Positions 7,687-28,873 of a DNA stretch of 35,632 nt are shown here, one piece after another. Both the position numbers and the translations under genes were made by a program. Origin of the DNA: an uncultured Aureispira sp. (GTDB lineage: Bacteria; Bacteroidota; Bacteroidia; Chitinophagales; Saprospiraceae); contig CALDEP010000038.1 in the NCBI GenBank assembly GCA_937942475.1, positions 1 to 35,632 of the forward strand, written 5' to 3'. The notes beneath the pieces are model-generated. The model was not told where the DNA came from, made no database searches, and was given only the letters and a program-made list of their open reading frames with translations. Numbering within the stretch: position 1 is the first letter of the stretch; every line of letters begins with the position of its first letter.

Positions 7687-9195
7687 CTAGTATCTTCTCT
7701 TAGTTTGACGCTTAGTAGTTTTAAATTGATTTCCACCTGGTGCACCATTTCCTTTTGGAGAACCTGTACGAGTCATCGCACAACGGAACCCTAAATAAGC
7801 AGAAGATTTATCTTCTTCTAAGAAACGTCTAGTACCTGGAGACATCCAGTAAGCTCTATCATTCCAAGCTCCACCTTTGTAAACACGTGTTTTGTCAGAA
7901 ACTAAACTGTGTTTTCCATATTCGTAAGTAGCTTCAGATTGAGCATCACCATCTAAGTGATTGATTACATTAGAGAATTGGAAATTTCTTCTGTTAGCAA
8001 TCTCATCTGCATCTAGTTCTTTGTATTTCAAACGACCAGGAGCACTACTATCACTATCTAATTGTGGCTTACCATCTGCATCTAGCTCTATTTCCATAAA
8101 GACATTACCACGATAAGGATTCAAATCTTGCGTTTCAACATCTCTTAAAGTAGTACTCGTCATTGGACGATAAACATCTTGTACCCACTCATTTACGTTT
8201 CCACCCATATTGTATAGACCGTAATCATTTGGTACATAAGATAGTACAGGCGCTGTAATTGAAGCATTATCATTCAAGGCTCCAGCCATACCCATATAAT
8301 CACCACGTCCACGCTTAAAGTTCGCAACAATCATACCTTGGTATCTACCATGTTGAGGATAACGAACAGTTGTTCCATCCCAAGGGTAAATTCTACGATC
8401 AGAAATACGCTCATCTCTAGCATAAGCTTGGTTACCAATCAAAGCCAAAGCTGCATATTCCCACTCTGCTTCCGAAGGCAAACGGTAATCAGGTAGAATA
8501 ATACCATCTTCAAACTTCACGGGTCTTTCTTCACCTGTAGAAGGACTTACCATTGGCTTGTCTCCTGGATCAGCCTCATAAAGACCTGCTAAATAAGATT
8601 CTGTTACAAAATTGTTAGCTCCTTGTTGACCTTCCATGTCACGAGCGATTTTACCACTTTCGATCAAAATCATTTCGTTTACACGGTCTGTTCTCCACTT
8701 ACAATATTCTTGCGCTTGCAACCAAGTAACTCCTACTAGAGGATATTCCATGTAGGCTGGGTGACGCAAATAAGTTTCTACATAAGGCTCGTTGTACGAC
8801 AGCTCTTCTAACCAAACTAATGTATCTGGTAATGCTTTTCTATACAATTGAGGCATGGAAGAATGCACACGTTGCAACCAAAATAAGTATTCTAAATAGG
8901 CAATATTAGAAACTTCGGTTTCATCCATGTAAAAAGAAGAAACAGTTACACGACGAGGAATACCACGGTAATCCTTCATTACGTCTTCTTCTGTTTGTCC
9001 CATATTAAAGGTACCACCTTCAATAAAAACGAGGTTTGGACCTGTCTCTTGACCTTGGTAGTCCATCGGCTTCTCAAAGCCACCCCAATCAGGGGAGTTA
9101 TATACCCACCCTGTAGTACTCGAACGTTCTTCCTTTTTACAAGAAGACATTCCGATTAACATACCAAGCAGTCCAAATAAAAATATTTTCTTCAT
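7687..9195 (-). CDS. gldJ: Gliding motility lipoprotein GldJ
   Basis: 502-residue outer-membrane-associated lipoprotein needed for gliding and, in Flavobacterium johnsoniae, for type IX secretion through stabilising GldK. The signal peptide ends in GMSSC, giving a lipidated Cys19. The rest is one long formylglycine-generating-enzyme/SUMF1-like fold (about 50-485), with hallmark strings such as FIEGGTFNMG, FYMDETEVSN, LPDTLVW, GGNVNEW and YKGGAWNDRAYW. The segment SSTTGWVYNSPDWGGFEKP after the lipobox and the TYLRHPAYMEYPLVGVTW block resemble GldJ rather than its paralogue GldK. In flavobacteria gldJ neighbours porU and porV, as here. It lies 61 bases downstream of the porP/sprF gene on the same strand, ending at a strong terminator, so the two probably form an operon. 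These SUMF1-like proteins are regarded as structural, not enzymes. Confidence 0.9.
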   Translation of the reverse strand: MKKIFLFGLLGMLIGMSSCKKEERSSTTGWVYNSPDWGGFEKPMDYQGQETGPNLVFIEGGTFNMGQTEEDVMKDYRGIPRRVTVSSFYMDETEVSNIAYLEYLFWLQRVHSSMPQLYRKALPDTLVWLEELSYNEPYVETYLRHPAYMEYPLVGVTWLQAQEYCKWRTDRVNEMILIESGKIARDMEGQQGANNFVTESYLAGLYEADPGDKPMVSPSTGEERPVKFEDGIILPDYRLPSEAEWEYAALALIGNQAYARDERISDRRIYPWDGTTVRYPQHGRYQGMIVANFKRGRGDYMGMAGALNDNASITAPVLSYVPNDYGLYNMGGNVNEWVQDVYRPMTSTTLRDVETQDLNPYRGNVFMEIELDADGKPQLDSDSSAPGRLKYKELDADEIANRRNFQFSNVINHLDGDAQSEATYEYGKHSLVSDKTRVYKGGAWNDRAYWMSPGTRRFLEEDKSSAYLGFRCAMTRTGSPKGNGAPGGNQFKTTKRQTKRRY

Positions 9196-9256: not shown

Positions 9257-10264
9257 TTACCTAAATATTTCTAGGCAATCATTGTATCTATTTTGATGTT
9301 TTCGTTTTTTATTTTCAAAGTTAAGCGTCAAAGAGATTTCATGTGCGCCTCCTGACTCTGCTCCTAACTTAGATACGGTTAAATCATAACTGTATCCCAA
9401 TTTAAAAACACCTTTCTGAATACCGACCATAAATATAACGGCATCAGCATTGGTAAAAGTATGTCGAAACCAAATTCCTCCCAAAAATATTCCGTATCGA
9501 GCGTAAGTACCGACATTTAGTTGGTGAAAATCTCTTTGTTTTACAAATAAGACATTTGGTGATAGAAACGCTTGTTTTCCTATTTTATTGTTCTTCGTCA
9601 AACGAATTTCACTTCCTGCATGTATAGCATAACGTATTGGCAATTCATCAGAGCCATTTTGATACGTGCTTAGAAAACTTTCTCTAGGAGTGGTTAAATG
9701 TTTTACAGAAACACCTGCATAAAAATAAGGGGTGTTCACCAATATACCGGTTCCTAAATCAAAGTAATTAATACTAGAACTACCTTGCGCTTCATTGGTG
9801 GGGTTCGTGTTTCCATTCACATCCACCGATCCTGTTGCTAAATTTAACTGATCTAAAAAGACCAATTTGTTCCAAGCTAGTCTAGAATTTACAAAACTTC
9901 CTTCTAAGCCAGCACGAATATAGAATTTTTTTGAAAATCGAATGTCATAAGCGTAAAATAACCCGACTCGATAGGTCGCATAAATTCCGCCACCCGCTAT
10001 ATCTGCTTCCACCAAAGCTCCAAAACCACTATTTAGTTTAGAAGCATAATGACTCACCGAAACGGCATAAGTAGCATAAGCATCGGGTATATTCGGCCAT
10101 TGATTTCTATAATTCAACGTAACTACGGGTGCTTCTACCAAGCCTGTTAAAGCTGGATTGAGTTGCATTGGCGCAGCAAAAAACTGACTATAAACAGGAT
10201 CCTGTGCTTTAATTTCGGCACAAAACAACAATAATCCTAAGAGTATAAGAAGTCTATATTTCAT
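9257..10264 (-). CDS. PorP/SprF family type IX secretion outer-membrane protein
   Basis: 335-residue predicted outer-membrane beta-barrel of the PorP/SprF family. A signal peptide of about 20 residues is followed by the family's standard opening QDPVYSQFFAAPMQLNPALTG, then alternating amphipathic strands to the C-terminus. PorP is a core T9SS component; SprF-type paralogues are needed for export of particular large adhesins such as SprB and usually sit beside the adhesin gene. Here the neighbour is gldJ, downstream with a 61-base gap, so I cannot tell whether this is the core PorP or a specialised SprF. It diverges from porU across an 839-base spacer. Confidence 0.88.
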   Translation of the reverse strand: MKYRLLILLGLLLFCAEIKAQDPVYSQFFAAPMQLNPALTGLVEAPVVTLNYRNQWPNIPDAYATYAVSVSHYASKLNSGFGALVEADIAGGGIYATYRVGLFYAYDIRFSKKFYIRAGLEGSFVNSRLAWNKLVFLDQLNLATGSVDVNGNTNPTNEAQGSSSINYFDLGTGILVNTPYFYAGVSVKHLTTPRESFLSTYQNGSDELPIRYAIHAGSEIRLTKNNKIGKQAFLSPNVLFVKQRDFHQLNVGTYARYGIFLGGIWFRHTFTNADAVIFMVGIQKGVFKLGYSYDLTVSKLGAESGGAHEISLTLNFENKKRKHQNRYNDCLEIFR

Positions 10265-11103
10265 AACATTCTATTTGGAGGGTGGGCAATTGATAACCAT
10301 GTTGCAGTAGTATCAGACAAAACTTAAATGTCTTTTATTTTGCATCCATGGAATAAATAAATTCTTTCAAACACAAGAATTTATCCTTGACCATCCTTTA
10401 ACGACGATAAAAGTACACTTATTTTCAAGTTTATCCTAAATTACTTTTTATTACAGTAGTTATTTTCTGCATGATTTATCTTTTTCCTATTACAATTGTA
10501 AAAAAATGGATGTACAAAATCCATACAGAGAAGAAAACTAGCGCATTCTTTTGGTGTGAATTGTTGAGAAGGTAGACTATAACATAACGACTAAATTTAT
10601 AAATTGTTAGGTCAAAAGTTGGGAACTTTACCATAAAGATAGACCATCTAAGGCATAATGTCAATTTAAGAACGTGCAGCGTATTTTTTTGAATAAAGAT
10701 GGTAGGTTTTTTAACAATTCGTTCACATTTCTCTTTTTTCTACGTTTTAATAATGTTTAATAGACTCATTCTATGTTTTTTTTTAATTCAAATTCATCTA
10801 TGATATAATTTTTACCCTAATCTAATAGTTCGACAAAATCCTTCCTTGCTTTTATCAGCAATTGCAATTTTGCAACAACATTTTCTAAAACAAATAGACC
10901 AACCGTCTAACTATTATTTTTACCAAAGTTGCTTTTGTCCCTGCTTGAGTTTCCTAAGCTTGAGTACTTGTTCTCTCCTAAAATAGCCTCTCCTACACTA
11001 TTAACAGAACAATTGGGTATCAATAAATGCTTTTTATAAAACAATTATATTTTTGATAGCACTCCCTATCTCTGCTAGATTATTATTCTAAAAAAAGAAC
11101 TTA
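10265..11103. promoter_or_regulatory. Divergent intergenic region between porP/sprF and the first porU
   Basis: 839 bases with no convincing gene. A 62-codon reading frame on the minus strand (10476-10664) has no recognisable features and I reject it. The right half contains a block (TCTATGATATAATTTTTACC at 10797-10816) that recurs before the second porU, and the last 20 bases before the porU start (TTCTAAAAAAAGAA) are also shared with the second copy. The left half must carry the porP/sprF promoter, which I could not place. Confidence 0.5.
10797..10816 (+). promoter_or_regulatory. Conserved upstream block of the first porU, probable promoter or leader signal
   Basis: The block matches 15196-15213 upstream of the second porU almost base for base (TCTATGRTATAATTTT) and lies at a similar distance from its gene (307 versus 278 bases). 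Surrounding sequence is much less alike. Its TATAAT core could be a -10-like element. The function is inferred from conservation only. Confidence 0.45.
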
Positions 11104-14100
11104 ATGCTTAAATCTATTTTTAAAGCAGGTCTACTAACCTTTATGTTTAGTACAAGCTCCTATGCGCAAACCACCACAGAAAGTATTGTCATTAATTGGG
11201 AAGAACAGCCACGCCAATATCAACTTTCTGAAGAACATACCTTACATTATTTATATTTTGAAGAGGCTAATTACAATGAATCCAAGCCTCAAATTCCAAT
11301 TTTTTCTAAACAAATTCCATTAACACAATATGGCGATTTAACCGCACGATTAATCAATGAACAATATGCGCCTCTAAATAACACAGAGCTTATTGATTTA
11401 TCTGCCATTGACGATATTGAAATTGAAACAGCAAGTAGTTTTGCTCGTAGGCAAGCTGTTGGGGTGGTTTCTTTTGTCCCCATACGCAAAAATCCAAACT
11501 CTGGTGAATATGAAAAACTAATTCAGGCGGATGTACAAATTAACATTACACCCAAGCCTTCTCCTTATGGTAATGGTTCTACGAGTCGCAATTTCACGAC
11601 TGTTTCTAAACTATCTAATGGGACAATTTACAAAATTGCCGTCACCAGTACCGGTGTACAAAAGTTAGATTATGACTTTTTGAAGGATCTTGGAGTTGAT
11701 CTTGATAACCTAGACCCTCGTAACATTCAGCTATTAGGAAATGGCGGCAAACAACTCATCGAACGAATGGATGTCCCTATTGATGACGACCTTCTTGAGA
11801 ATAGAATCTTTGTCTCAGGAGAAGCGGATGGCAGTTTTGATCAAAATGATTATATTTTGTTTTATGGTGTTGGCACTAGAAACTGGACTTATAATCCAAA
11901 TATAGCCTGTGGTAAATATCAACACAGCATCAATCCTTATACCGATGAGAGTTATTATTTTATAAAAATTGGCGCTACCAATGGCTTGCGTATTCAGAAT
12001 CGAGCTTCTATTGGAATAGGCAACTATACGACGACTAGTTATGATGCTTTGGCACATCACGAAGTGGATGAAACAAATTTGATGGAAGAAGAATTTTCTA
12101 TTCCTCCTTCTGGAAGAACTTGGTATGGGGAGTCTTTTAGAACAACAAGAACCAGAAATTTTAATTTTACGTTTTCTAATAGAATAGAAAGCGAGCCTGT
12201 TTTCATTCAATCTGATTTAGCCGCACGTGTTTTTAGTGCAGGTTCTGCAACGCTAAGAGCGAATGGTAATTTGATTGGGAATCCAGTTAATGCATCTGTT
12301 ACAACCGTTTATATCTATTCTAACTATGCCACTCGATTACAATTCCCTTGTACCCCAAGCCTACTTTCTGGTCAAAACATTGACCTCCAAATTAATTTGA
12401 ATCATTCTAGTACAGCAGCAGAAATGTGGCTCAACTACTTGTCCTTGCAAGCACGTTGTCAGTTGACTTTTGATAATGGGCAATTCTCTTTTAGAGACAG
12501 TCGATCTTTGGGGCAAGGAAGTGCTAGTTATCAACTCAATAATGCCAACAATCTAATGCTTTGGGACGTGACAGATCCTAGTAATGTGTTCAATCAAGAG
12601 TATACAGGTTCTGGAACGATTTCTTTTGGAGCAGATGCTAGTATTATTCGTGAGTTTGTGGCTTTTGATAACAATCAATTTTACGTTCCATTGAATAGAG
12701 GAAGCGTTAACAATCAAAATTTACACGCGATTACCACGCCGCCTGATGCTATTTTTGTCGTCCATGCTTCTCTAAGAGCAGAAGCAGAGCGTTTGGCAGC
12801 ACATCGCAGAAGTCATGATAACATGACGATTGATGTGATTGATGTTGCAGACATTTACAATGAATTTGCTTCTGGCAGCCCTGATATTACGGCTATTCGA
12901 AATTTCTGTAAGATGCTCTATGAAAGAGAAACGGCTACAGATCAATTCACCCATTTATTATTATTTGGAATCGGTTCTTTTGATTATAAATCTCTTGGAG
13001 CAAACCGCACAGAAGCCAATAATCCAAACTTGATTCCACTTTATGAGACCTTGGAATCAATGAATCCTATTGATACCTATACTTCTGATGATTATTTTGC
13101 TTTGTTAGATGATCACGAAAGAATGGAATTCTTTAGTTTATTAGATATTGCTGTTGGGCGACTTCCTGCGGCTACCCTTAGCGAAGCCAAAACTCTGGTG
13201 GATAAAATTGTCTATTATGAAACATCAAACAACATTCTAAGAGATTGGAAAAACAGGATTTGTTTTGTAGCAGACGATGAAGATGAGAACCTACATTTTG
13301 ACGATGCAGAACATGTGGTTCAGGTGATGGAGCAACAGAGTAATAATTATAACAGTGACAAAATATACATAGATGCTTTTCAACAAGTTAGTACGTCTGG
13401 TGGCGAGCGTTATCCTGACGCTAAAAATGCCTTTTTAGACGTCTTATTCAAAGGTTCCTTTATTGTGAATTATCTAGGACATGGCGGAAGTGATGGCTGG
13501 ACACAAGAACGTATTTTTACAAGTAATGATATTACTAAGTTATCGAACAAAGATAAACTACCTTTTTTCATTACTGCTACCTGCTCTTTTGGACCTCATG
13601 ACGACCCTACAGAGGTTTCTGCGGGTGAGTTGTTATTACTAAACCCTAATGGTGGTGCTATTTCTTTGTTTACAACCGTTCGTGTTGTTCTAGCAAACGA
13701 CAATGCAACATTAGTTCGTCATACCTTTGATGTTCTATTTGACAAAAACTCAAATGGAAAAATGCATACAACAGGGGAAATCCTAAGGCTTGCTAAAAAT
13801 AATGCTGCCATTCCATCCCCTATAAATTCTAGAAAGTATGCCTTATTAGGCGATCCAACCATGACTTTAGCTTACCCTAAACATCAGGTTAAAACAACTC
13901 GAATTAACAATCGCCCCGTCTCCAATCAGGATACTATTCGTGCTTTAGATTTTGTTACTATTTCTGGTGAAATCACAGATGATAATGGCAATAAAATATC
14001 CAATTTTAATGGCACGATTTATCCTACTGTCTTTGATAAAGAAGATCGTTTGTCTACGCTTGGACATGACATCAAAAGTCATCCTTCAACTTTCTTTTTG

Positions 14101-14991
14101 CGTAAAAAAATAATTTTCAAAGGGCAAGCTAGTGTCATCAATGGCGAATTCACCTACTCCTTTGTCGTGCCCAAAGATATTAATTACACGATGGGCTATG
14201 GCAAAATATCTTATTACGCTGAAAACAACAACCACCTAGATGCACATGGTTATTATAATGGTCTTGTTATTGGTGGATCAAATCCCAATGCGCCTATTGA
14301 TAATGAAGGTCCAGAAGTGCTGGTTTATATGAATACGGAAAGCTTTGCTAGGGGTGGAATGACAGATCCAAATCCCATCTTATTAGTAAAATTATATGAC
14401 GAACATGGCGTAAACACCGTTGGCAATAGCATTGGACATGATTTAACAGCCGTGCTTCGCCCCTTAGATGCGACCAAAGAGTCGACCATTGTTCTGAATG
14501 ATTTTTACGAATCGACAAAGGATGATTATACGAGAGGAACCGTTAGTTATCCGCTCAAAGATCTAGAGCCTGGTTTGCATCATGTTAGGGTCAAAGCTTG
14601 GGATGTGTTTAATAATCCAGGAGAAGGTTCTACAGAATTTGTTGTCGCAGAATCTGCAGATATGGCATTGGCGCATGTCTTAAATTATCCAAATCCATTT
14701 ACAACAAGTACCAACTTTCAATTTGAACACAATTTACCTTATCAATCCTTAGACGTGCAGGTTCAAATTTATACGGTTTCAGGCAAATTAGTCAAAACCA
14801 TTGCTCACGACATCAGTGCTGAAGAGAATGAAGGGTATCGGGTGGATAATATTCATTGGGATGGACTGGACGATTATGGCGATCGAATTGGTAAAGGCGT
14901 TTATATTTACAAAATATTGGTTCAAGCAGAAGGAGCTACTGATCAGGCAAAACAGAACAGCGAGTTTCAAAAATTAGTTATTCTAAAATAA
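11104..14991 (+). CDS. porU: Type IX secretion sortase PorU, first tandem copy
   Basis: 1295-residue cell-surface cysteine protease of family C25 (gingipain-like). PorU removes the C-terminal signal from T9SS cargo and attaches the cargo to an anionic glycolipid, working with PorV in the attachment complex. A signal peptide (about 1-21, ending SSYAQ) is followed by an N-terminal beta-rich region. The C25 catalytic domain at about 540-900 has His793 in NYLGHGGSDGW and Cys827 in ITATCSFGPHDDP. The C-terminal region ends in a FlgD-like/T9SS-type domain (LNYPNPFTTSTNFQFEH, YTVSGKLVKTI, GDRIGKGVYIYKI). PorU itself keeps such a domain uncleaved in Porphyromonas. The second copy follows 482 bases downstream with identical length and the same catalytic residue numbers. 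In the stretches compared, this copy uses more CGA/CGC and GGG codons than the second. Both copies look intact. Confidence 0.93.
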   Translation: MLKSIFKAGLLTFMFSTSSYAQTTTESIVINWEEQPRQYQLSEEHTLHYLYFEEANYNESKPQIPIFSKQIPLTQYGDLTARLINEQYAPLNNTELIDLSAIDDIEIETASSFARRQAVGVVSFVPIRKNPNSGEYEKLIQADVQINITPKPSPYGNGSTSRNFTTVSKLSNGTIYKIAVTSTGVQKLDYDFLKDLGVDLDNLDPRNIQLLGNGGKQLIERMDVPIDDDLLENRIFVSGEADGSFDQNDYILFYGVGTRNWTYNPNIACGKYQHSINPYTDESYYFIKIGATNGLRIQNRASIGIGNYTTTSYDALAHHEVDETNLMEEEFSIPPSGRTWYGESFRTTRTRNFNFTFSNRIESEPVFIQSDLAARVFSAGSATLRANGNLIGNPVNASVTTVYIYSNYATRLQFPCTPSLLSGQNIDLQINLNHSSTAAEMWLNYLSLQARCQLTFDNGQFSFRDSRSLGQGSASYQLNNANNLMLWDVTDPSNVFNQEYTGSGTISFGADASIIREFVAFDNNQFYVPLNRGSVNNQNLHAITTPPDAIFVVHASLRAEAERLAAHRRSHDNMTIDVIDVADIYNEFASGSPDITAIRNFCKMLYERETATDQFTHLLLFGIGSFDYKSLGANRTEANNPNLIPLYETLESMNPIDTYTSDDYFALLDDHERMEFFSLLDIAVGRLPAATLSEAKTLVDKIVYYETSNNILRDWKNRICFVADDEDENLHFDDAEHVVQVMEQQSNNYNSDKIYIDAFQQVSTSGGERYPDAKNAFLDVLFKGSFIVNYLGHGGSDGWTQERIFTSNDITKLSNKDKLPFFITATCSFGPHDDPTEVSAGELLLLNPNGGAISLFTTVRVVLANDNATLVRHTFDVLFDKNSNGKMHTTGEILRLAKNNAAIPSPINSRKYALLGDPTMTLAYPKHQVKTTRINNRPVSNQDTIRALDFVTISGEITDDNGNKISNFNGTIYPTVFDKEDRLSTLGHDIKSHPSTFFLRKKIIFKGQASVINGEFTYSFVVPKDINYTMGYGKISYYAENNNHLDAHGYYNGLVIGGSNPNAPIDNEGPEVLVYMNTESFARGGMTDPNPILLVKLYDEHGVNTVGNSIGHDLTAVLRPLDATKESTIVLNDFYESTKDDYTRGTVSYPLKDLEPGLHHVRVKAWDVFNNPGEGSTEFVVAESADMALAHVLNYPNPFTTSTNFQFEHNLPYQSLDVQVQIYTVSGKLVKTIAHDISAEENEGYRVDNIHWDGLDDYGDRIGKGVYIYKILVQAEGATDQAKQNSEFQKLVILK

Positions 14992-15006
14992 GTAGCTTTA
15001 CTACAG

Positions 15007-15044
15007 GGCAAAAGAGATCGTCTTGATTAACGATCCCTTTTGTC
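15007..15044 (+). terminator. Likely terminator of the first porU
   Basis: Imperfect 15-bp inverted repeat (GGCAAAAGAGATCGT / ACGATCCCTTTTGTC) with an 8-base loop, starting 16 bases past the stop. The following T-run is weak and interrupted. Confidence 0.6.
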
Positions 15045-15195
15045 TTGTATCCTTATTTTGCAGTTTGTCATTTTTTTTATCAAAAAACGTATTTATTTTT
15101 ATTTATACATCAACACTTTTAACTTTGTGCACGTTCTATCAATACAAGCACTCAAAATACTTTTTTTAGAATTTTAAATGATACGCTCAATAATA

Positions 15196-15213
15196 TCTAT
15201 GGTATAATTTTAC
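15196..15213 (+). promoter_or_regulatory. Conserved upstream block of the second porU
   Basis: TCTATGGTATAATTTTAC matches the block at 10797-10816 upstream of the first porU, 278 bases before the start codon. It may be promoter or leader sequence retained since the duplication. Confidence 0.45.
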
Positions 15214-15473
15214 ATTAAAAAACCTTTACTTTACTATTTTTTTACTTGGTTTCTTAATTAAGAAAAGAATCAGGAATTTGTAATTTTTTCAAGCATCCCA
15301 ACTTTTTGGCTATTTTGTTTGTCCTAGTTATAGTTCCTCTTACGTAATTCTAAATAGAGTTTGATATATTACATCATCAGCTTTGTATAGAAAGATTCTG
15401 TACCCTTGCTCATTATATCTTATATAGTAGTATCCTATAACTACTATATTATCATTCTAAAAAACAGAAAACA

Positions 15474-18400
15474 ATGCTTCAGTCAATTTTTAAGGCATTA
15501 TTATTAACACTTATTGTTAGTAGCAGTTTATATGCTCAAACCATTACCGAGTCGATCGACTTAAAATGGGAGGAACAACCTCGTCAATACAAGCTTTCCG
15601 AAGATCATACACTTCATTATATGCATTTTGAAGATGCTAGTTATGATGAGTCCAAACCTCAATTTCCAATTTTCTCTAAACAAATTCGCCTAAATACTTA
15701 TGGTGACTTAAATGTTAGATTAGTCAATGAGCAATATACGCCCTTGGCAAATACTAGTGAGTTGGATTTGTCTGAAATTGGAGCGCTTAATATTGAGACA
15801 GCGGTAAGTTTTGTTCGTAGACAACCTGTAGGAGTTGTTTATTTTATGCCAATTCGCAAAAATCCAACAACAGGGCAATATGAAAAATTAGTTCGTGCAG
15901 ATTTGCAAATTAATGTCAGCCCAAAAGTTTCCCCTTACAGCAGTGTTTCTAATAGTCGTAACTTTACAAATACCTCTAAATTATCGGACGGACTTATTTA
16001 TAAGATTGCTGTTACAAGCACTGGAGTCCAAAAACTAGATTATGACTTTCTAAAAAGTCTTGGTATAGATGTGGATAATATTGATCCTAGAAAAATTCAA
16101 CTGTTAGGAAATGGAGGAAATAAATTAATCGAACGCATGGATGTTGCCATTACAGATGACCTCCTTGAAAATAGAATCTTTGTATCTGGAGAATCAGATG
16201 GTAGTTTTGATCAAAGTGACTATCTCCTATTTTATGGTGTTGGGACTAAAAACTGGTCGTATAATAGTAGTGCTACTTGTAATAATTTCAGCCACAGCAC
16301 GAATCCATATACAGATGAAAGTTACTACTTCATAAAAATTAGTGGTACCAATGGTTTGCGTATGACAAACAGAACTTCTGTAGCAGGTACAAGTTATACA
16401 ACGAATAGTTACGATGCCTTGGCACACCATGAAGTAGATGAAACCAACTTAATGGAACAAGAATTTGCCTTGCCTCCTTCTGGAAGAGAGTGGTATGGGG
16501 AGTCTTTTAGAACAACAAGAACTAGAAATTTTAACTTCGATTTCCAAAACAGAATAGAAACGGAACCTGTTATCATTAAATCAGATTTAGCAGTTCGTGT
16601 ATTCAGTCCAGGTACAGCAACACTTAGAGCGAATGGCAATTTGATTGGTAATCCAGTAAATACAGCATCCACTACTGTTTATGTTTATTCTGACTATGCA
16701 AAACGATTGACCTTCCCTTGTAGTTCTAATCTATTATCAGGACAAAGTATTGATCTAGAAATTAACTTAAACCATACTAGTACAGCAGCAGAAATGTGGC
16801 TTAACTATTTGTCTTTACAAGCACGTTGTCAATTAAGTTTTTCTAATGGTCAATTGACTTTTAGAGACACTCGTTCTTTAGGACAGGGAAATGCCACTTA
16901 TCAACTTAGCAATGCTAATAATTTAACGGTTTGGGATGTAACAGATCCTAACAATATTTTCATTCAAGATTATACGGGTTCTGGAAATATTTCTTTTGGA
17001 GCAGATGCAAGCGTACTTCGTGAGTTTGTTGCTTTTGATAACAATCAATTTTATGTTCCATTAGATAAAGGAACCGTTGCTAATCAAAATTTACACGGAA
17101 TTACAACGCCACCAGATGCTGTATTTGTTGTCCACTCTTCTTTAAGAGCAGAGGCAGATCGTTTGGCGGCACATCGTAGAAGCCATGATAACATCACGGT
17201 AGATGTGGTGAATGTAGAAGACATCTACAACGAATTTTCTTCTGGTAACCCAGATGTAACGGCTATTCGTGATTTTTGTAGAATGTTATATCAAAGAGGA
17301 ACGGCGACAGATGAATTTACGCATTTATTGTTGTTTGGAATTGGTTCTTTTGATTACAAATCTCTTGGAGATAGTCGGACACCAGCAAACAATCCCAACT
17401 TAGTTCCAGTCTATGAGACGCAAGAATCCATGCATCCAATTAACACCTATACTTCAGATGATTATTTTGCCTTATTGGATGATAATGAAAGTATGCCTGT
17501 TTTTGGTTTGTTAGATATTGCTGTTGGACGTCTTCCTGCTGCTAATATTGCAGAAGCAAGAACCTTTGTTAATAAAATTGTTCATTATGAAACCAATCCT
17601 GTTGTTCTAAATGACTGGAAAAATAGATTGTGTTTTGTAGGTGATGATGGAGATAATAATTTGCACTTTTATGATGCAGAAGGTGTTGCCATCACGGCAG
17701 GACAGCAAGACAGTACCTATAATATCGAAAAGGTTTATTTAGATGCCTTTCAGCAAGTAAGTACCTCTGGTGGAGAACGTTATCCTGATGCAAGAAATGC
17801 TTTATTAGATATTTTGTTCAAAGGTACCTTTATCGTGAATTATCTAGGACATGGAGGAGATGATGGTTGGACACAAGAGCGTGTATTTACAAGTAGTGAT
17901 ATCAATGCTTTAACGAATATTGATAAATTGCCGCTCTTTATTACAGCAACCTGTTCTTTTGGACCACACGATGATCCATCAACTGTTTCTGCTGGAGAGT
18001 TATTATTATTAAATCCAAATGGAGGTGCTATTTCTGTTCTGACAACGGTACGAGTAGTAATTGCTTCGCACAATGAGCGTTTGGTACGAAATACCTTTAA
18101 TGTTATTTTTGACAGACAGGCAAATGGGCAGATGTTAACAACTGGAGAAGTTTTACAGTTTTCTAAAAACAATGCTGCCATTTCACCACCTGTCAACTCT
18201 AGAAAATATGCCTTGTTAGGAGATCCAACGATGAAGTTGGCTTACCCTAGACATAATATTCAAACGACTCAAATCAATAATCAAGCGGTTACGAATCTAG
18301 ATACCATTCGTGCCTTGGAATTGGTCACTATTTCTGGTGATGTTGTCGATAATAGTGGCGTAAAGGTTTCTAATTTTAATGGAACTATTTACCCAACTGT

Positions 18401-19361
18401 ATTTGATAAACAAGATCGTTTGTATACTTTAGGAAATGATGCTGGAAGTTTTGCAGATGATTTCTTTTTGCGTAAAAAAATCATCTTCAAAGGGCAAGCT
18501 AGTGTTGTTAACGGAAGCTTTACCTTCTCTTTTGTGGTTCCCAAAGACATTAATTACTCGCTAGGCTACGGGAAAATATCTTACTATGCCGAAGATCAAT
18601 CTGTATTTGATGCCCATGGTAATTATGATGGGCTTATTGTTGGAGGTTCTAACCCGAATCCACCAATTGATAATGAAGGACCAGAAGTTTTGGTTTATAT
18701 GAATACGGAACAGTTTGCAAGAGGAGGAATTACAGACAACAATCCTAAATTGTTGGTTAAATTGTACGATGAGAATGGTATTAATACCGTAGGAAATAGT
18801 ATTGGGCATGATTTGACGGCAAAACTAACGACTCCAAAGCAAGAGGAAGAATTGGAATATATCTTGAATGATTTTTATGAATCAACAAAAGATGACTACA
18901 CCAGAGGAACGGTTGTTTATCCTTTAAAAGATTTAGAGCCTGGTTTACATACCGTGAAGGTTAAAGCTTGGGATGTTTTTAATAATCCAGGAGAAGGTTC
19001 TACAGAATTTATTGTAGCCGAATCCGCAGATATGGCTTTAGCACACGTTCTAAATTATCCAAATCCATTTACAACAAGTACTAATTTCCAGTTTGAGCAT
19101 AATTTACCTTATCAGTCTCTTGAAATTCAGGTTCAAATTTATACGGTTTCAGGTAAGCTGGTAAAGACCATTGGTCACGACATTAGTGCTGAAGGAAATA
19201 ATGGTTATCGTGTAGATGACATTCACTGGGATGGATTGGATGATTATGGCGACCGAATTGGTAAAGGCGTTTATATCTATAAAATACAAGTTCAAGCAGA
19301 AGGAGCAAGCGATAATGCCAAGCAAAGTAGTGCGTTCCAAAAATTAGTTATTCTAAAATAA
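15474..19361 (+). CDS. porU: Type IX secretion sortase PorU, second tandem copy
   Basis: 1295 residues, the same length as the upstream copy and co-linear with it, including catalytic His793 (NYLGHGGDDGW) and Cys827 (ITATCSFGPHDDP). By hand, 42 of the first 60 residues are identical; the catalytic and C-terminal regions are closer still. It has a signal peptide ending SLYAQ, the C25 peptidase domain, and the C-terminal region with LNYPNPFTTSTNFQFEH and GKGVYIYKI. In sampled stretches this copy prefers CGT and GGA where copy one has CGA/CGC and GGG, suggesting higher expression (inference). It is the copy next to porV, the normal partner, so it may be the housekeeping sortase and copy one a variant for other cargo. 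No broken residue separates the two. Most T9SS bacteria are described with a single porU. Confidence 0.93.
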   Translation: MLQSIFKALLLTLIVSSSLYAQTITESIDLKWEEQPRQYKLSEDHTLHYMHFEDASYDESKPQFPIFSKQIRLNTYGDLNVRLVNEQYTPLANTSELDLSEIGALNIETAVSFVRRQPVGVVYFMPIRKNPTTGQYEKLVRADLQINVSPKVSPYSSVSNSRNFTNTSKLSDGLIYKIAVTSTGVQKLDYDFLKSLGIDVDNIDPRKIQLLGNGGNKLIERMDVAITDDLLENRIFVSGESDGSFDQSDYLLFYGVGTKNWSYNSSATCNNFSHSTNPYTDESYYFIKISGTNGLRMTNRTSVAGTSYTTNSYDALAHHEVDETNLMEQEFALPPSGREWYGESFRTTRTRNFNFDFQNRIETEPVIIKSDLAVRVFSPGTATLRANGNLIGNPVNTASTTVYVYSDYAKRLTFPCSSNLLSGQSIDLEINLNHTSTAAEMWLNYLSLQARCQLSFSNGQLTFRDTRSLGQGNATYQLSNANNLTVWDVTDPNNIFIQDYTGSGNISFGADASVLREFVAFDNNQFYVPLDKGTVANQNLHGITTPPDAVFVVHSSLRAEADRLAAHRRSHDNITVDVVNVEDIYNEFSSGNPDVTAIRDFCRMLYQRGTATDEFTHLLLFGIGSFDYKSLGDSRTPANNPNLVPVYETQESMHPINTYTSDDYFALLDDNESMPVFGLLDIAVGRLPAANIAEARTFVNKIVHYETNPVVLNDWKNRLCFVGDDGDNNLHFYDAEGVAITAGQQDSTYNIEKVYLDAFQQVSTSGGERYPDARNALLDILFKGTFIVNYLGHGGDDGWTQERVFTSSDINALTNIDKLPLFITATCSFGPHDDPSTVSAGELLLLNPNGGAISVLTTVRVVIASHNERLVRNTFNVIFDRQANGQMLTTGEVLQFSKNNAAISPPVNSRKYALLGDPTMKLAYPRHNIQTTQINNQAVTNLDTIRALELVTISGDVVDNSGVKVSNFNGTIYPTVFDKQDRLYTLGNDAGSFADDFFLRKKIIFKGQASVVNGSFTFSFVVPKDINYSLGYGKISYYAEDQSVFDAHGNYDGLIVGGSNPNPPIDNEGPEVLVYMNTEQFARGGITDNNPKLLVKLYDENGINTVGNSIGHDLTAKLTTPKQEEELEYILNDFYESTKDDYTRGTVVYPLKDLEPGLHTVKVKAWDVFNNPGEGSTEFIVAESADMALAHVLNYPNPFTTSTNFQFEHNLPYQSLEIQVQIYTVSGKLVKTIGHDISAEGNNGYRVDDIHWDGLDDYGDRIGKGVYIYKIQVQAEGASDNAKQSSAFQKLVILK

Positions 19362-19438
19362 TTATAAAAATGGTTCTTTTGCAAATCGTGTGGAGTTTAA
19401 AACATAGGCTCTTTTTTTAACAGCTATGAATTGGGATA

Positions 19439-19509
19439 TAAGTTTTAAGTAGAAAGTCGTAAGTTGGTTATTATCAAAAGAAAACTTACGACTTTCTACT
19501 TAAAACTTA
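19439..19509 (+). repeat. Perfect 27-bp inverted repeat after the second porU
   Basis: Arms 19439-19465 and 19483-19509 are perfect reverse complements around a 17-base loop. Within the arms the word AAAACTTACGACT recurs directly at 19482 and 19502. It may work as a terminator or protect an RNA end, but the stem is far longer than a standard terminator and has no clean T-run. It resembles the other long AT-rich hairpins at 21310-21361 and 32128-32201 in design. Confidence 0.8.
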
Positions 19510-19755
19510 CGACTCATACTGTCTAATAGAAAAGTGGTTTAACTTATTACCACACGATTTGTCAAAGAACGATAAAAATAAAGAACCTATAGAAGAACAA
19601 GAAGTAGCCTCATGAGAACTTAATTGACTTTAAGTGTACAAATAAGTTCTCATGCTGCTGCTGTTCTTAAATAATTGTATGATTTTTGCTACAACAAGCT
19701 CGTGTTTGTTTTTCAACCATCTACAGTTCTAAAAAATATATAGAATCAAAGCAAT

Positions 19756-19780
19756 AAGTACAGTTTTATTTGTACTTTTG
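19756..19780 (+). promoter_or_regulatory. Putative porV promoter -7 box overlapped by a dyad
   Basis: TACTTTTG at 19773-19780 fits the Bacteroidota -7 consensus TAnnTTTG. It is overlapped by an inverted repeat AAGTACA (19756-19762) / TGTACTT (19771-19777) with an 8-base spacer, an arrangement a repressor could use. I see no good -33 TTTG at the right distance. The leader to the start codon would be about 175 bases. Confidence 0.4.
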
Positions 19781-19960
19781 AGCATAAAACCAAAAAATTA
19801 GCATACATGTAAAGAACTTTACTTCAAGGAATCATTTTTAAAGTAAAACGTCTAAAAGACACATTTTTTTCTTGTTTACTATTGTCATCAATAGTAGGTA
19901 GATCGCACAAATCAACAAGCATTAAATGATCTGAAAGAACGATTACAAACCAAAACAGTA

Positions 19961-21292
19961 ATGACAAATAATAATTCTTATATGAAGATGACGATTCTAA
20001 GAAGTTGCCTTATTATTATAGCAACGCTTATTTTTATCCAGACTAAAACAACGGCACAAGGTTCTATTGATTGTCCATTTAATGGTGCATCTGCAGATGG
20101 TTCAGATTGCAACAATACCATTATCACAGCAGTTCCCTTTTTAAGAATAGTACCAGATGCTCGCTTTGGAGGTATGGGAGATGTTGGTATTGCAATGCCA
20201 GCGGATGCCAACTCGATGCATTTTAATGCTTCTGCTTTGACTTTTGCTCAAAAAGATTTTAGTATCTCAGCTACGTTTACCCCTTGGTTGCGTGCCTTGG
20301 GTCTTAACGATGTATTTTTGGCTTACCTATCTGCTTACAAGCACATTGATTATTTCCAAACCATTGGAGTTAGTCTTCGTTTCTTTTCTTTGGGTCAAAT
20401 CCAATACACAGACGATCAAGGAAATCCATTACAGACGGTACGTCCAAATGAATTTGAACTAGCGGTCGCCTATTCTCGTAAATTAGGAAAAGAGTTTTCT
20501 GTTGGGTTTACCCCTAAATATATTTTCTCTAATTTGGGTACAGGTGCTGTATCGGGAGGACAAAGCATGATGCCTGCACACGGTTTTGCAGCAGATTTGT
20601 CGTTCTCTTTCCGCAAAGAACTACAAGTTGGTAAAGAAAGAGAAGATTTAGAAGGTAAAAAGAATGCTATATTTACAGCAGGATTAGCTTTCTCTAATAT
20701 TGGTACAAAAGTATCTTATACACAATCTGCTAATCGTGATTACATACCTGCCAACTTAGGTTTAGGGTTTTCATTTGAATATCAGTTTGACAAGCACAAC
20801 TCTATTACTTTAGGTTTAGATGTCAATAAATTATTGGTTCCTACGCCTGTTCGTCAATTACAATACGATGACGATGGTGACATTATTGTTGATTCTAATA
20901 ACGACCCTATTATCAATCCAGATTATGATGCTAATGGAGATGGTGTCCCAGATTATAAGGATCAGGGTGTTCCTGCTTCTATTTTCTCTTCTTTTGGAGA
21001 TGCTCCAGGTGGTGCAGCAGAAGAGTTGTCTGAGTTAATGTGGTCTGTTGGTATCGAGTACTGGTACAACAAACAATTTGCCGTTCGTTTTGGACATTAC
21101 AACGAACACAAATTTAAAGGTAATCGTAAATTCTTTACCGTTGGTTTAGGAATTCGTTACAAGATCTTCAACATCAACTTTTCTTACTTAATTCCTTCTC
21201 AAGCAGGACAACGTAATCCTTTGGATAATACCTTACGTTTCTCTATTATGTTTGATTTTGGAAAAGCTCCAGATAAGAAAAAAGGAAAATAA
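19961..21292 (+). CDS. porV: Type IX secretion outer-membrane protein PorV (LptO)
   Basis: 443-residue outer-membrane beta-barrel of the FadL-like PorV family. PorV collects cargo carrying a T9SS C-terminal signal from the SprA/Sov translocon and brings it to PorU for cleavage and attachment. After a signal peptide (about 1-32, ending TTAQ) comes the family opening, with FLRIVPDARFGGMGDVGIAMP and SMHFNASAL. The C-terminal part has MWSVGIEYWYNKQFAVRFGHYNEHKFKGNRKFFTVGLG, also typical. An external-loop insertion at about 302-336 has two Asp-rich stretches; the second (DYDANGDGVPDYKD, 321-334) has the spacing of an EF-hand/TSP3-like calcium loop. Two starts are possible, 19961 and the inner ATG at 19982 (residue 8); the inner one gives a more usual signal peptide, but I keep the longer. 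It follows porU, its functional partner. Confidence 0.93.
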   Translation: MTNNNSYMKMTILRSCLIIIATLIFIQTKTTAQGSIDCPFNGASADGSDCNNTIITAVPFLRIVPDARFGGMGDVGIAMPADANSMHFNASALTFAQKDFSISATFTPWLRALGLNDVFLAYLSAYKHIDYFQTIGVSLRFFSLGQIQYTDDQGNPLQTVRPNEFELAVAYSRKLGKEFSVGFTPKYIFSNLGTGAVSGGQSMMPAHGFAADLSFSFRKELQVGKEREDLEGKKNAIFTAGLAFSNIGTKVSYTQSANRDYIPANLGLGFSFEYQFDKHNSITLGLDVNKLLVPTPVRQLQYDDDGDIIVDSNNDPIINPDYDANGDGVPDYKDQGVPASIFSSFGDAPGGAAEELSELMWSVGIEYWYNKQFAVRFGHYNEHKFKGNRKFFTVGLGIRYKIFNINFSYLIPSQAGQRNPLDNTLRFSIMFDFGKAPDKKKGK

Positions 21293-21309
21293 TTAAGGTG
21301 TTCATTAGA

Positions 21310-21361
21310 CAATTTGAAAATTTGAAAATAGTTTATCTACTATTTTCAAATTTTCAAATTG
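21310..21361. terminator. Perfect 23-bp inverted repeat, probable bidirectional terminator
   Basis: Arms CAATTTGAAAATTTGAAAAT(AGT) and its exact complement flank a 6-base loop. It begins 18 bases past the porV stop. It is AT-rich, with internal near-repeats of TTTGAAAA. Confidence 0.65.
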
Positions 21362-21442
21362 CTTAATATTTAATTAATAATCCGAATCAAGAGCTAAAAT
21401 GGGGGTCTCTGATAAATCAAAAAAACGAATAAAGGCTTCACA

Positions 21443-21531
21443 AAAATGTTTAATGTTGAATTTTTAATGCTGAATGCTCTACAGCATAAGAAACATTAAA
21501 AATTCAGCATTTAGCATTAAACATTAAAAAA
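21443..21531. repeat. Imperfect long hairpin related to the one at 32128-32201
   Basis: Built from repeated words (TTTAATG, GAATTTTTAATG, CATTAAAAATTCAGCAT, CATTAAACATTAAAAA) that pair across an interrupted stem. The word ACATTAAAAATTYAGCATT is shared with the hairpin at 32128-32201, so the two are copies of one dispersed palindromic element family. Confidence 0.55.
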
Positions 21532-21611
21532 TGTAGGCTTGTAAAATGCAATCGCTCTGTTCTAAATGTACCATTTATTGATGTTTTATCCCTTGATTCA
21601 AATTAAGAACA

Positions 21612-22502
21612 TTAATACGACCAAAGGTCATGTTCAAAGTTAAAGACCTCTGATTGAATTCGCTCGGATTCCAACAAGGCATTAACACCATTGTTCGTAT
21701 AATCTTTGATTCTTCTATCGTGTATGTTACTTTCTTTGACAACATAGGAAGAAAATAGTCGAGCTTCAAAGATATCATCCCAACTCAAACGAGCGCCATC
21801 ATTCATTGGATTAAAGGTCTCTGTTTTGGCAAAAGTTTTTCGCAATTCTGGGTAATAAGCCCAAAACATCGCCCCTGAATTCAATACTTCTCCTTGATCG
21901 TCATAACGATTTACAATAGGTGCAATGCCCAAAATACGTACCCCAAGACTAGATGTTTCTTCATCAAAATACCAAACCTCCTTGATGCGATACTTTTGAA
22001 TATCTTCCCAATTCATTTCATTCTGAACAACAATAATAGTATCCTTAAATGTGATGGGATCATAAATGCGAATGGTATCACTAGAAGACAACATGTCTCG
22101 AATTTCGTTTTGTGTCAATGCCTGTGTAAATTGATCGTCCCAAGTGCTGTAAAGCGTAATATCGCCTTCTTGAGCTGCATTTAAAATCGTTGTAATTAAT
22201 GGTCCATGAGGGCTTATGAATGTATGATTCATTTTTTCACGCGTATCTATTTCTCTCCAAATACGTTTTTCCCAAAACACATCTTTCTCGTGAACATAAT
22301 CGTAAGGTAAAGGCATTTTTTCTGTGTGCAAATAACGATCATAAAACCCATCTCTAGGCTTTTTACAAGGTTTGGCATCCTTCGAGTCGGATGCGATGCT
22401 AGTCCCTGATTCCGTCATATAGGTGTTTTGAGCACTTAGGCTACTAGCCAACACCACCAAACTAGTGATTATAATCCCTGTGACTTTTGTGATTGCGTTC
22501 AT
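21612..22502 (-). CDS. gldN: Type IX secretion ring protein GldN (PorN)
   Basis: 296-residue periplasmic protein that, with the lipoprotein GldK/PorK, forms the large ring of the T9SS and contacts the GldM/PorM motor stalk. A signal peptide (about 1-25, ending SLSAQ) is followed by the conserved family body: REIDTREKMNHTFISP, LINAAQEGDITLYS-like text at about 105-120, WYFDEETSSLGVRILGIAP, and FWAYYPELRKTFAKTETFNPMNDGARLSWDDIFEARLFSSYVVKESN. Length and end match the family. In most Bacteroidota gldN closes the gldKLMN operon; here the neighbours are porV (convergent) and a penicillin-binding protein, and no gldK, gldL or gldM is visible. It could be the only gldN, relocated, or a second copy like GldO of Flavobacterium johnsoniae. 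Confidence 0.93.
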   Translation of the reverse strand: MNAITKVTGIIITSLVVLASSLSAQNTYMTESGTSIASDSKDAKPCKKPRDGFYDRYLHTEKMPLPYDYVHEKDVFWEKRIWREIDTREKMNHTFISPHGPLITTILNAAQEGDITLYSTWDDQFTQALTQNEIRDMLSSSDTIRIYDPITFKDTIIVVQNEMNWEDIQKYRIKEVWYFDEETSSLGVRILGIAPIVNRYDDQGEVLNSGAMFWAYYPELRKTFAKTETFNPMNDGARLSWDDIFEARLFSSYVVKESNIHDRRIKDYTNNGVNALLESERIQSEVFNFEHDLWSY

Positions 22503-26029: not shown

Positions 26030-28873
26030 TTATCGGTAGTGTGTTTCAAAAAATGTACTGTACAATCGGAATTTTTGAGTAGTCATTGCTATCCCGTAAT
26101 TTTCGCTTGAAATAGCATAAATCGTATAGCCTGTCGCTCCTGGCAAAAACTCTTTATTTGAACGTGCATCAACCACATATTTCATCGCCTCATCAGCATT
26201 TGGATACGCCCCACGCACAATCAAAGTAGGAATGGTACGATCTACTAAAATAGTAGAGACACTTAACTTTTTATTTAAGTGAAACTTGTTGTTGTATTGT
26301 GTTAAAGGTGCTCGGTATTGGTTCACCCTTGTTTTTGCATTATCAAAAACAATCAAAATGAAGTGCTTCATTTTTTTGTTAACCTTATAAATATCTTTTT
26401 CTTCATCTGAACTACCATTTTTAGCATTGCTTCCTCCACCTCTGTTTCCTTTCTTACCACTCAGAATAGCAATCATTTTTTTGGCTTGCGTTTCTTCTTT
26501 GGTATCTGGAAAACTCGTCACAATAATTCGAAGCGCCTTAATATAATCTTGCTCGCCTTTCATTCCGCCCACACACATGGCTTCAAGAATTGCAAATCGA
26601 GCTTTCATCTCATAATTATTTCCAAATTCTGTTGGAATTGCTCGGACACGCCCCAAAGCCTTTTCCGCTTCTCCCCCTTGAATCATAGCATAAGTATCAT
26701 CATAATACTTATTGATTTTCTCATATTTTAGCTTTTCAGAATTTGCAAATTCTGGATCACTCAAGACCTTAGCAATATTAGATTCAGGGTATTTCTTCAA
26801 GATTTCATTCTTATAATAAGTAGCCTTGCTGATGTTATTTTTTTCAGAATAAATATTGTACGCCAAGAACATCCCTTCTACAGCATAAGTATTTTCAGGG
26901 TATTTTCGAACCAACTCTTCCACCAATTTCAATGCCTTGTCTGTACGTCCCAAATCCTCTCTATAATGCTCGGCTGCTTTGTACATGGCTTCTCCAACCT
27001 TAGCTTTGGTAGAAGCTATTTCTTGATCACTTCTTGGTACGCCTCTCTTTTTCAAATAAGCATCAATTTCTGCTTGTGTTTTAGGCTCTACAACTACAAT
27101 ATCAGCCTCAACGGTATTGACATCTTCTTCTCTATCCGAACGTCTCCAATCATCCACCCAAGCACGATTGTTCCAACGTTTTTCAAATTCACGTTCTCCT
27201 TTTTTCTTCAGAGAAGCATTGTATAAAGGAAATTTTGATTTTTGAATTTCTGCATCTGAGATGGTTATTTTTCCATTCGCAGTAGTCGTTCTTTTATTTG
27301 ATCGACTTGGCAAAGCAGCTTCATCTACAGATTTCATTCCTTGACGTTCTCTATCAATCACTCCTCTACCTGATCTTCCTGCTTTCACTGTGGAAACGGC
27401 TGCTGTTGCGCCATCATTTTGACCATTTAATTCATCCATTTCCATTCCTCTAATCGCCCAAGCCTCTTGTTTTTTTCGATCAAAAGCGCCTACTATCAAC
27501 ATACTATCTTTATCCACCTTAATAGCAACATGAGTAGCAACGCCTTCCAATCTTCGTTTATACATTTCAGTAGTTGTATAACGCTCATCTTCCTTGTCCA
27601 TTACTTGAACCGTGCTATCATAATAGGCGTAAGATCTAACAAAATCATCCTTTTCATAAAACAACTCTGCCAATAACAAAGCACCTTCTGCACGTTGTGC
27701 ATTACTAGCACTATAATTCAAGGATTGTTGCAACGCAAGAATACCTTCGTCCGTTTTACCCGACTTTAATTTAATTTTAGCCAAAGCAAAGTAAATTTGA
27801 TCTTTATATTCGTCATTCTTAGAATCACGCAACATACGTTTCAAAGCTATTTCTGGGTCGACGGCCTTTTTTCCTGATGCAGAGGCAGCATTAGTTGCCA
27901 TATTTAAACGGGCGTTAAATTCCATCGCATAACTAGGGCGCAAACGCAAGACATCATGGAAGTTTTCCATCGCCATTTGATTGTTGCTTTGCATCTGATA
28001 AATTTGCCCCAATACATAAACATAACGATTCTTAACCGTCTTCTTTTTGGTTCCTTTGATGGCAGCTTCCAAAGGCTCTACTGCTTTTGCATATTCTTTT
28101 TGAGTAATCCAATTATAAGCAATGACAGCTTGTACTTCAGAACGTAATTTTTTAGGTACCTTCATATCATTCTCCAACTGACGCAAATAATAACCAGCAT
28201 CGTCGTATTGACCTAACTCGATATACGTCTTTGCCAACCACAACATAGATTTGTAGCGTACAGGACGATGTTTCAAACCATATTTAATTGGTTTTTCCTC
28301 TTCTTCCTCTTCAGGGTCGCCATTAGGCTTTTTCTTTCCTTTCTTTTTTGTACTTTTCTTCTTACGCTTCTTCTTTTTGCGTTTTTTACGTTTTTTTCCT
28401 TTACGTTTTTTCTTCTTTTTTTTCTTTTTAAGTTTTTCTAACTCTTTGGCAACGTTCTCAGGATGGTATTTATCCACAATAAATTTGAAGGTATTTGCAG
28501 CACGCTCATATTCTTGTTGTAAAAACTCTGCTTTCCCCATTAGATGATAACTATCATCCGTCCAATTACCAATTTCATGCAATTTAATATTTCGAGCAGA
28601 TTTAGTAATCGCCTCATCTAGTGGTTGCTTGACAGAGTTTACATCAGCAGCGGCAGCATAAGGATACATGTGCAACAATTTATTGTAATTATCCTGATGT
28701 TGCTTATTTAAGGTACTAAAGCTCTCTTCAACGCGTAAGTTTGCATTGTAATAAGCATTGTATCGACCTGTTAAATTGTGGTAAGGTTTGGTTGCTAAGG
28801 TTTGTTTGCCACATCCTGCTAATAGGAGGATGGTGACACTTATGCTTCCAAAAAATATAAATAGACTTTTCAT
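26030..28873 (-). CDS. porW: Type IX secretion lipoprotein PorW/SprE (TPR protein)
   Basis: 947 residues from the ATG at 28873; an ATG 12 codons upstream (28909) is also possible, but the inner start gives a standard lipoprotein signal MKSLFIFFGSISVTILLLAGC with lipidated Cys21. PorW/SprE is a T9SS lipoprotein with tetratricopeptide-like repeats, thought to link the PorK/N ring and motor to the outer-membrane translocon. The family opening is clear (YHNLTGRYNAYYNANLRVEESFSTLN, then HEIGNWTDDSYHLMGKAEF), and helical repeats continue to about 700. A C-terminal domain (about 830-947) contains MKHFILIVFDNAKTRVNQ. The oddity is residues 149-182 (28328-28429), 34 residues almost all Lys or Arg, followed by an acidic run at about 187-194, inserted between two repeats. 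The gene diverges from the M23 peptidase gene. Confidence 0.87.
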   Translation of the reverse strand: MKSLFIFFGSISVTILLLAGCGKQTLATKPYHNLTGRYNAYYNANLRVEESFSTLNKQHQDNYNKLLHMYPYAAAADVNSVKQPLDEAITKSARNIKLHEIGNWTDDSYHLMGKAEFLQQEYERAANTFKFIVDKYHPENVAKELEKLKKKKKKKKRKGKKRKKRKKKKRKKKSTKKKGKKKPNGDPEEEEEEKPIKYGLKHRPVRYKSMLWLAKTYIELGQYDDAGYYLRQLENDMKVPKKLRSEVQAVIAYNWITQKEYAKAVEPLEAAIKGTKKKTVKNRYVYVLGQIYQMQSNNQMAMENFHDVLRLRPSYAMEFNARLNMATNAASASGKKAVDPEIALKRMLRDSKNDEYKDQIYFALAKIKLKSGKTDEGILALQQSLNYSASNAQRAEGALLLAELFYEKDDFVRSYAYYDSTVQVMDKEDERYTTTEMYKRRLEGVATHVAIKVDKDSMLIVGAFDRKKQEAWAIRGMEMDELNGQNDGATAAVSTVKAGRSGRGVIDRERQGMKSVDEAALPSRSNKRTTTANGKITISDAEIQKSKFPLYNASLKKKGEREFEKRWNNRAWVDDWRRSDREEDVNTVEADIVVVEPKTQAEIDAYLKKRGVPRSDQEIASTKAKVGEAMYKAAEHYREDLGRTDKALKLVEELVRKYPENTYAVEGMFLAYNIYSEKNNISKATYYKNEILKKYPESNIAKVLSDPEFANSEKLKYEKINKYYDDTYAMIQGGEAEKALGRVRAIPTEFGNNYEMKARFAILEAMCVGGMKGEQDYIKALRIIVTSFPDTKEETQAKKMIAILSGKKGNRGGGSNAKNGSSDEEKDIYKVNKKMKHFILIVFDNAKTRVNQYRAPLTQYNNKFHLNKKLSVSTILVDRTIPTLIVRGAYPNADEAMKYVVDARSNKEFLPGATGYTIYAISSENYGIAMTTQKFRLYSTFFETHYR
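28328..28429 (-). repeat. Lys/Arg-coding homopurine tract within porW
   Basis: About 100 bases, nearly all purine on the coding strand (AAA, AAG, CGT and GGA codons), encoding an almost unbroken basic run with one Ser-Thr and a few Gly. The reading frame continues unchanged on both sides, so it is a real insertion rather than a frameshift. Such tracts are prone to slippage. Confidence 0.85.

Follow-up and report, generated by a model that had tools for sequence, protein, structure and literature searches.

The T9SS locus and its porW gene

We analysed a stretch of 35,632 nucleotides from an uncultured Aureispira sp. (hereafter the window), which carries a T9SS locus. From lower coordinates, the order is an FGE-fold protein, a PorP/SprF protein, two C25 peptidases, PorV, GldN, a PBP1A-like protein, porW and an M23 peptidase. 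The FGE-sulfatase-fold protein (7687..9195, minus strand; PF03781) is perhaps GldK/PorK-like, and the other components are the PorP/SprF-family protein (9257..10264, minus strand; PF11751), the PorV-family protein (19961..21292, plus strand; PF19572) and the T9SS/gliding component gldN (21612..22502, minus strand; TIGR03523 and PF19841). The two C25 peptidases stand in tandem within this T9SS island (7687-22502), are of equal length (1295 aa) and may be PorU-like. GldN is found above the cut-off in two to four copies per genome in members of the window's genus (G000, G002-G004, G006 and G008), and in one or two copies in the other genomes searched. Ahead of the island lie a Fic-domain protein (1480-2076), a tandem array between two ORFs (2556-2657; 32-bp unit, 3.2 copies, 78% matches) and a large alpha-2-macroglobulin-like protein (2806-7401). 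The window's own genome carries a T9SS, with matches above cut-off for SprA, GldN and DUF4835 (PF16119), which we take to be PorD, together with cargo tails.

The porW/sprE gene occupies 26030..28873 of the minus strand, with the ATG at 28873 and the stop codon included, and encodes 947 amino acids. The protein matches the T9SS_PorW_SprE family (NF052312) with 434.7 bits against a curated cut-off of 250, is matched by TPR Pfam models in the profile search, and matches F. johnsoniae SprE (8GL8 chain I) with an E-value of 2.3e-26. The AlphaFold2 model, built from 49 sequences with a mean pLDDT of 82.1 and a pTM of 0.59, was compared with the SprE chain 8gl8_I and gave a Z of 28.9 and an rmsd of 7.8 over 613 aligned residues, indicating a SprE-fold TPR scaffold; the following rows of the structure search are general TPR proteins with Z near 20. 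A signal peptide (28811..28873, minus strand) was read directly from the sequence. Its LLAGC at residues 17-21, located by eye and by regular expression, is presumably a lipobox, judging from the general pattern of such motifs, and Cys21 is the presumed lipidated residue. In another family of the same order (f20; L060-L063), PorW starts with a signal peptide but shows no obvious lipobox, in contrast to the window's genus. In excerpts of PMC8754138, P. gingivalis PorW is described as the equivalent of SprE and as an outer-membrane-anchored periplasmic lipoprotein that links the PorK/N ring with Sov. PorW/SprE is a known family, and the basic arm described below is a lineage-specific variant of it.

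The polybasic tract and the insertion that carries it

Residues 149-182 of PorW (28328..28429, minus strand) form a polybasic tract in which 30 of 34 residues are Lys or Arg (26 Lys and 4 Arg), and after the tract and PNGDP comes an acidic run of six Glu, E188-E193 (28295..28312, minus strand), as the first-pass annotation had described. The K+R fraction of PorW outside residues 149-193 is 0.161, which gives a binomial P (at least 30/34) of 3.6e-20. Fifteen of the 20 listed window ORFs of at least 110 aa were tested for K/R density, and the 14 others among them peak at 6-12 per 34 residues, bearing out the earlier view that the charge density is extreme.

The tract lies in a lineage-specific segment of 73 residues between Tyr136 and Met210 (28247..28465, minus strand), which was delimited by aligning 94 loci to an HMM profile built without the insertion. 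The segment occupies a fixed turn between TPR helix pairs, in agreement with the first reading, which placed the tract between helical repeats of this lipoprotein. In the AlphaFold2 model, a continuous helix predicted for residues 138-171 (28361..28462, minus strand) exits the helix pair 105-118/122-135, departs from the TPR scaffold and covers residues 149-171 of the tract. The helix has block pLDDT values of 85, 83 and 73 over residues 141-170, and it is followed by a stretch with pLDDT below 50 (174-200), which contains the acidic run and precedes the next TPR. Lys-rich helices are easily over-predicted, and a Lys helix would be unstable without a polyanion. The model of the relative L043 has two helices in its insertion of 300 residues, 186-296 and 310-404 (111 and 95 residues), with block pLDDT of 39-84. 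These two models make the role of an arm, or of the spacer proposed in the first reading, structurally plausible.

At the DNA level, the tract is not homopurine as had been claimed, since its four Arg codons are CGT (three) and CGC (one), and the longest purine run within the insertion is 24 bases. Elsewhere in the genus, the Arg codons of the insertion are partly CGN and partly AGA/AGG. A search of the window's own genome (contigs, 88.5% complete) for exact matches to (AAR)x8 gives a single site, the tract itself. Among four genus members, the string occurs in PorW only in G002, in PorW and one further site in G004, in PorW and two further sites in G003, and at no site in G006, in which the PorW tract is interrupted by Arg. 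L312 (G004) and L314 (G003) are proteins of ~350 aa with runs of 8-9 Lys, similar N-termini and signal-peptide-like starts. The string A AAA AAG stands in slippery phase at porW codons 152 and 176 (about 28418 and 28346, inside the tract) and at codon 335; the -1 frame from codon 152 meets a stop four codons on.

PorW was matched in all 60 genomes of the first search, the window's own genome included, and four of the 60 (G012, G016, G042 and G057) are absent from the alignment. The genome count leaves out L020 (G034) and L037 (G019), whose genes are contig-cut, as well as L031-L033, which are named copies of counted genomes (Aureispira for L031 and L032, a Saprospiraceae MAG for L033; NCBI puts Aureispira in Saprospirales). 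Between the Tyr136 and Met210 anchors, all 63 readable genomes of the same order have 24-303 residues. Outside the order, the same interval is 6-14 residues in all 25 chosen genomes, which were hand-picked, spread over families, from 185 genomes that include some without PorW above the cut-off; it is 9 residues in one additional outside record, L034 (Crocinitomicaceae). The net charge of the insertion across the order ranges from -1 to +47. In the window's genus, represented by nine genomes with eight distinct sequences, the segment has 64-73 residues, a net charge of +20 to +28 and 26-28 K/R per 30 residues; L003 and L004, two of the nine, have PorW segments that are alike, and the protein identity of the window organism to the same-genus G001 and G008 is 84% and 82%, respectively. 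The insertion is conserved in position and charge within the genus and fixed in place throughout the order. The first-pass annotation had regarded absence from close relatives, with no change of length, as a sign of neutral slippage, and what we found is a segment of varying length in all nine.

Other families of the order show other states of the insertion. In f20 (seven genomes), it has 42-48 residues and a net charge of -1 to +7, while L023 and L043 carry long mixed-charge insertions of ~300 residues with net charges of +13 and +9. When the insertion was divided into halves, with its last 8 residues omitted, the first half was more positive than the second in 52 of 63 genomes (43/54 without the genus), and the second half was net negative in 13 of 63 genomes only. 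A FastTree gene tree with moderate support does not place the insertion-bearing genomes in one clade: eight outside genomes branch within the group that descends from their last shared ancestor, and the closest grouping of f20 is with G039 and G059. The insertion may have arisen by one gain with losses or by two gains.

At four-fold sites, the window gene differs from seven relatives at 86/193 to 102/141 positions (45-72%; d4 from 0.70 to saturated). We ran a neutral simulation from the window insertion with substitutions only and no slippage term, for genus comparisons only and with saturated distances set to 3. The observed 26-28 K/R per 30 residues was reached in 0 of 2000 runs in each comparison, and the simulated maxima had means of 5-9 and 99.9th percentiles of 10-17. 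An AT-driven origin of the lysines was also considered and rejected, since, over a GC range of 31-60%, GC shows no significant tie to the Lys share of the insertion, K/(K+R) (rho -0.11, p 0.39, n=63), or to its local charge (rho -0.22, p 0.09); the total K+R fraction shows a weak dependence (rho -0.29, p 0.02). The insertion of L007 holds four copies of a 15-bp unit coding KKKKR, all with the same codons, which points to short duplication in a conserved tract. The earlier suggestion that homopurine DNA varies in length between cells and so tunes the protein is not supported. The codons are mixed, Arg is encoded by CGN, and the near-identical genomes G008 and G004, which form one pair only, differ at 2 of 5829 bases and at none in porW; on the other hand, the length does differ between species (64-73 residues), and L007 has its duplication, with the charge preserved throughout. 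Slippage could regenerate Lys codons, on which selection would then act. The mixed codons, the fixed place and the order-wide presence lead us to propose selection on charge. We suggest that the PorW arm has probably been kept by selection, since members of the genus retain its charge although their silent sites have diverged strongly, and the tract looks like a working part gained in one lineage rather than a copying accident.

Arm charge, cargo and the proposed function

Local arm charge was compared with the net charge of T9SS cargo, sampled as the 1-3 top-scoring proteins per genome. The tail profile was confirmed in 101/101 cargo loci with the figures unchanged, and the longest frame was taken at 11 loci. 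Within the order, a more basic arm goes with more acidic cargo (rho -0.52, n=39). This tie holds with GC partialled out, and independent contrasts give r -0.41 with p 0.022, a value that is uncorrected although several correlations were tried. Over all genomes, rho is -0.41 (n=51) and the contrasts give r -0.32 with p 0.093. Acidic cargo does not need the arm, because 4 of the 12 genomes sampled outside the order (G080, G095, G102 and G134) have no arm and have cargo of -8 to -11 net charge per 100 aa. Cargo-tail candidates, which are first-look matches of which the best 150 and the best 64 per genome were scored, have a median of 46.5 per Mb in the order (63 genomes) and 18.3 outside (25 genomes); their first-look numbers are 344 in G000, 452 in G004 and 544 in G013. 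The number of these first-look candidates per Mb also rises with local arm charge (rho 0.35, n=63), but contrasts do not uphold this tie (p 0.13 within the order and 0.07 over all), and cargo number was rejected as the explanation.

We then considered the charge of components of the machine. Arm charge correlates with that of PorD (rho -0.64, n=21), GldN (rho -0.42) and SprA (rho -0.28), but contrasts give r -0.02 and p 0.96 for PorD, p 0.23 for GldN and p 0.97 for SprA. ORFs flanking PorD, with frames chosen by position alone, served as a control and showed no tie (rho 0.09, n=21). Arm-bearing groups have more acidic medians for PorD, GldN and SprA than f20 and the genomes outside the order (for GldN, -4.7 and -6.6 per 100 aa versus 0.5 and 0.0), and a general shift in the charge of envelope proteins is possible. 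No acidic tract fitting the arm was found in the 28 PorD, 27 GldN, 26 SprA and 29 Skp proteins read, and their most acidic 30-residue windows range from -3 to -12 with no clear split between groups, the -12 belonging to SprA of G037. These sets hold one GldN per genome, the second GldN of G046 (L153) being left out, and L138 (GldN) and L217 (Skp) gave no ORF; the PorD, GldN and SprA sets exclude G008, and the SprA set excludes G018 and G046, in which SprA is cut or split.

In excerpts of PMC10994853, SprE and a SkpA trimer form a dish next to the SprA cavity, with its concave side to the pore axis; two N-terminal regions of SprE contact the rim of SprA, where density from disordered cargo is also seen. 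Because SprE is a periplasmic scaffold beside the SprA pore whose N-terminal regions touch the rim, we suggest that the arm acts electrostatically near the pore mouth. The tract would form the core of an arm that this order has inserted among the N-terminal TPRs of PorW/SprE. In the genus, the arm would be nearly pure Lys/Arg, with the predicted helix 138-171 and an acidic stretch on the return, and in other families it would be longer and of mixed charge, with two long helices predicted in one modelled relative. Starting from the N-terminal TPRs, such an arm could reach cargo, the membrane or neighbouring proteins. It would provide electrostatic attraction near the pore mouth and may keep flexible, acidic passenger parts of T9SS cargo at the translocon or raise their concentration there. 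We consider an electrostatic arm likely; acidic cargo is the leading candidate for its ligand, closely followed by an anionic envelope surface. DNA, also named in the first reading, is an unlikely ligand of periplasmic PorW. For the reading as a whole, that is, a lineage-specific basic arm that acts electrostatically near the translocon mouth and has acidic cargo passenger parts as its likeliest ligand, we estimate a probability of about 0.35. It is quite unlikely that the arm amounts to a second cargo-facing device in one Bacteroidota order, with a charge at the pore mouth that matches how acidic a very large secretome is and that is most extreme in the Aureispira-like genus.

Instead of cargo, the arm may grip an anionic envelope surface, namely outer-membrane phospholipid or LPS phosphates or peptidoglycan carboxylates, and so anchor or orient the PorW scaffold. 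A diffuse polyanion would suit the near-pure Lys/Arg composition, a lipobox is present in PorW and outer-membrane anchoring is described for its relatives, a PBP1A-like protein (below its family cut-off) and an M23 peptidase flank porW, and the PorD, GldN, SprA and Skp proteins read have no acidic tract to match the arm. However, PorW outside the order does without an arm, and L023 and L043, with insertions of about 300 residues, reach no more than +13 and +9; we consider this putative anchoring somewhat unlikely. It is rather doubtful that the insertion serves as a spacer or stalk that is charged and soluble, in which length and rigidity would matter and exact charge would not, the pure-basic form of the genus being one drifted state. 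The variation of composition by family (basic, mixed, near-neutral in f20) and of length (24-303 residues) is consistent with it, as are the helices of 111 and 95 residues modelled in L043 with modest confidence, but the genus keeps 64-73 residues and a net charge of +20 to +28 despite strong divergence. Binding to one specific acidic protein of the T9SS/gliding machine is improbable. Such a putative partner would agree with the charge segregation along the insertion (52/63) and its conservation, with the net acidic GldN of arm-bearing groups, and with the tie to PorD before contrasts, PorD being a known binder of SprE at its Finger Region (excerpts of PMC10994853); against it, the PorD and GldN ties vanish with contrasts, and the acidic windows of PorD, GldN, SprA and Skp do not clearly separate the groups. 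Finally, a functionless low-complexity expansion by neutral slippage, which the 15-bp repeat of L007 with its identical codons and the window's weak tandem arrays, with 63-76% matches, might suggest, is most improbable and was rejected as sole cause in view of the fixed place in 63 genomes, the codon mixture, the CGN Arg codons, the conservation and the substitution-only simulation.

If the arm acts near the pore, as the electrostatic reading proposes, the hand-over of cargo to SprA would differ between lineages, and the one SprE structure solved so far is that of an organism that lacks the arm. The order offers a natural series, from 24 to 303 residues and from -1 to +47 net charge, as a ready experiment on charge and length. 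The case also cautions against discarding low-complexity Lys tracts as noise, since the place and charge of this one outlast strong-to-saturated silent divergence.

Comparison with known systems

ER/K single alpha helices consist of alternating acidic and basic blocks. The long charged helices of L023 and L043 look like helices of this type, but the window tract differs from them: it has no Asp or Glu in residues 149-182 and is without the salt-bridge pattern. No paper on the basic arm of PorW stood among the matches listed in searches of an open-access library, subscription papers and preprints lying outside that search. The add-on described for P. gingivalis PorW in excerpts of PMC8754138 is the C-terminal D6 domain, which binds PorN, and the word "lysine" is absent from the main text of that paper. 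The T9SS of the Aureispira-like genus is said to serve predation in excerpts of PMC12421860.

The closest comparison is with F. johnsoniae SprE (8GL8 chain I), which has a short loop at about residues 150-156 at the site of the 73-residue segment of the window protein. According to excerpts of PMC10994853 (Lauber et al. 2024), SprE has a Finger Region, a partly helical and partly disordered insertion in the ninth TPR (E445-T550); it binds PorD and is directed toward cargo density. In the same excerpts, SprE parts not resolved in the structure, at other sites than the arm, were replaced or removed in F. johnsoniae with no detectable T9SS effect. By pairwise alignment to 8gl8_I, the approximate counterpart of the Finger Region in the window protein is at about residues 499-592 (27098..27379, minus strand), with low pLDDT at 492-546 and 578-594. 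The basic arm is not the Finger Region, as it follows the helix pair 105-118/122-135, at about 150-156 of SprE. Both elements interrupt the TPR array, at different sites, and the PorW of the window has both.
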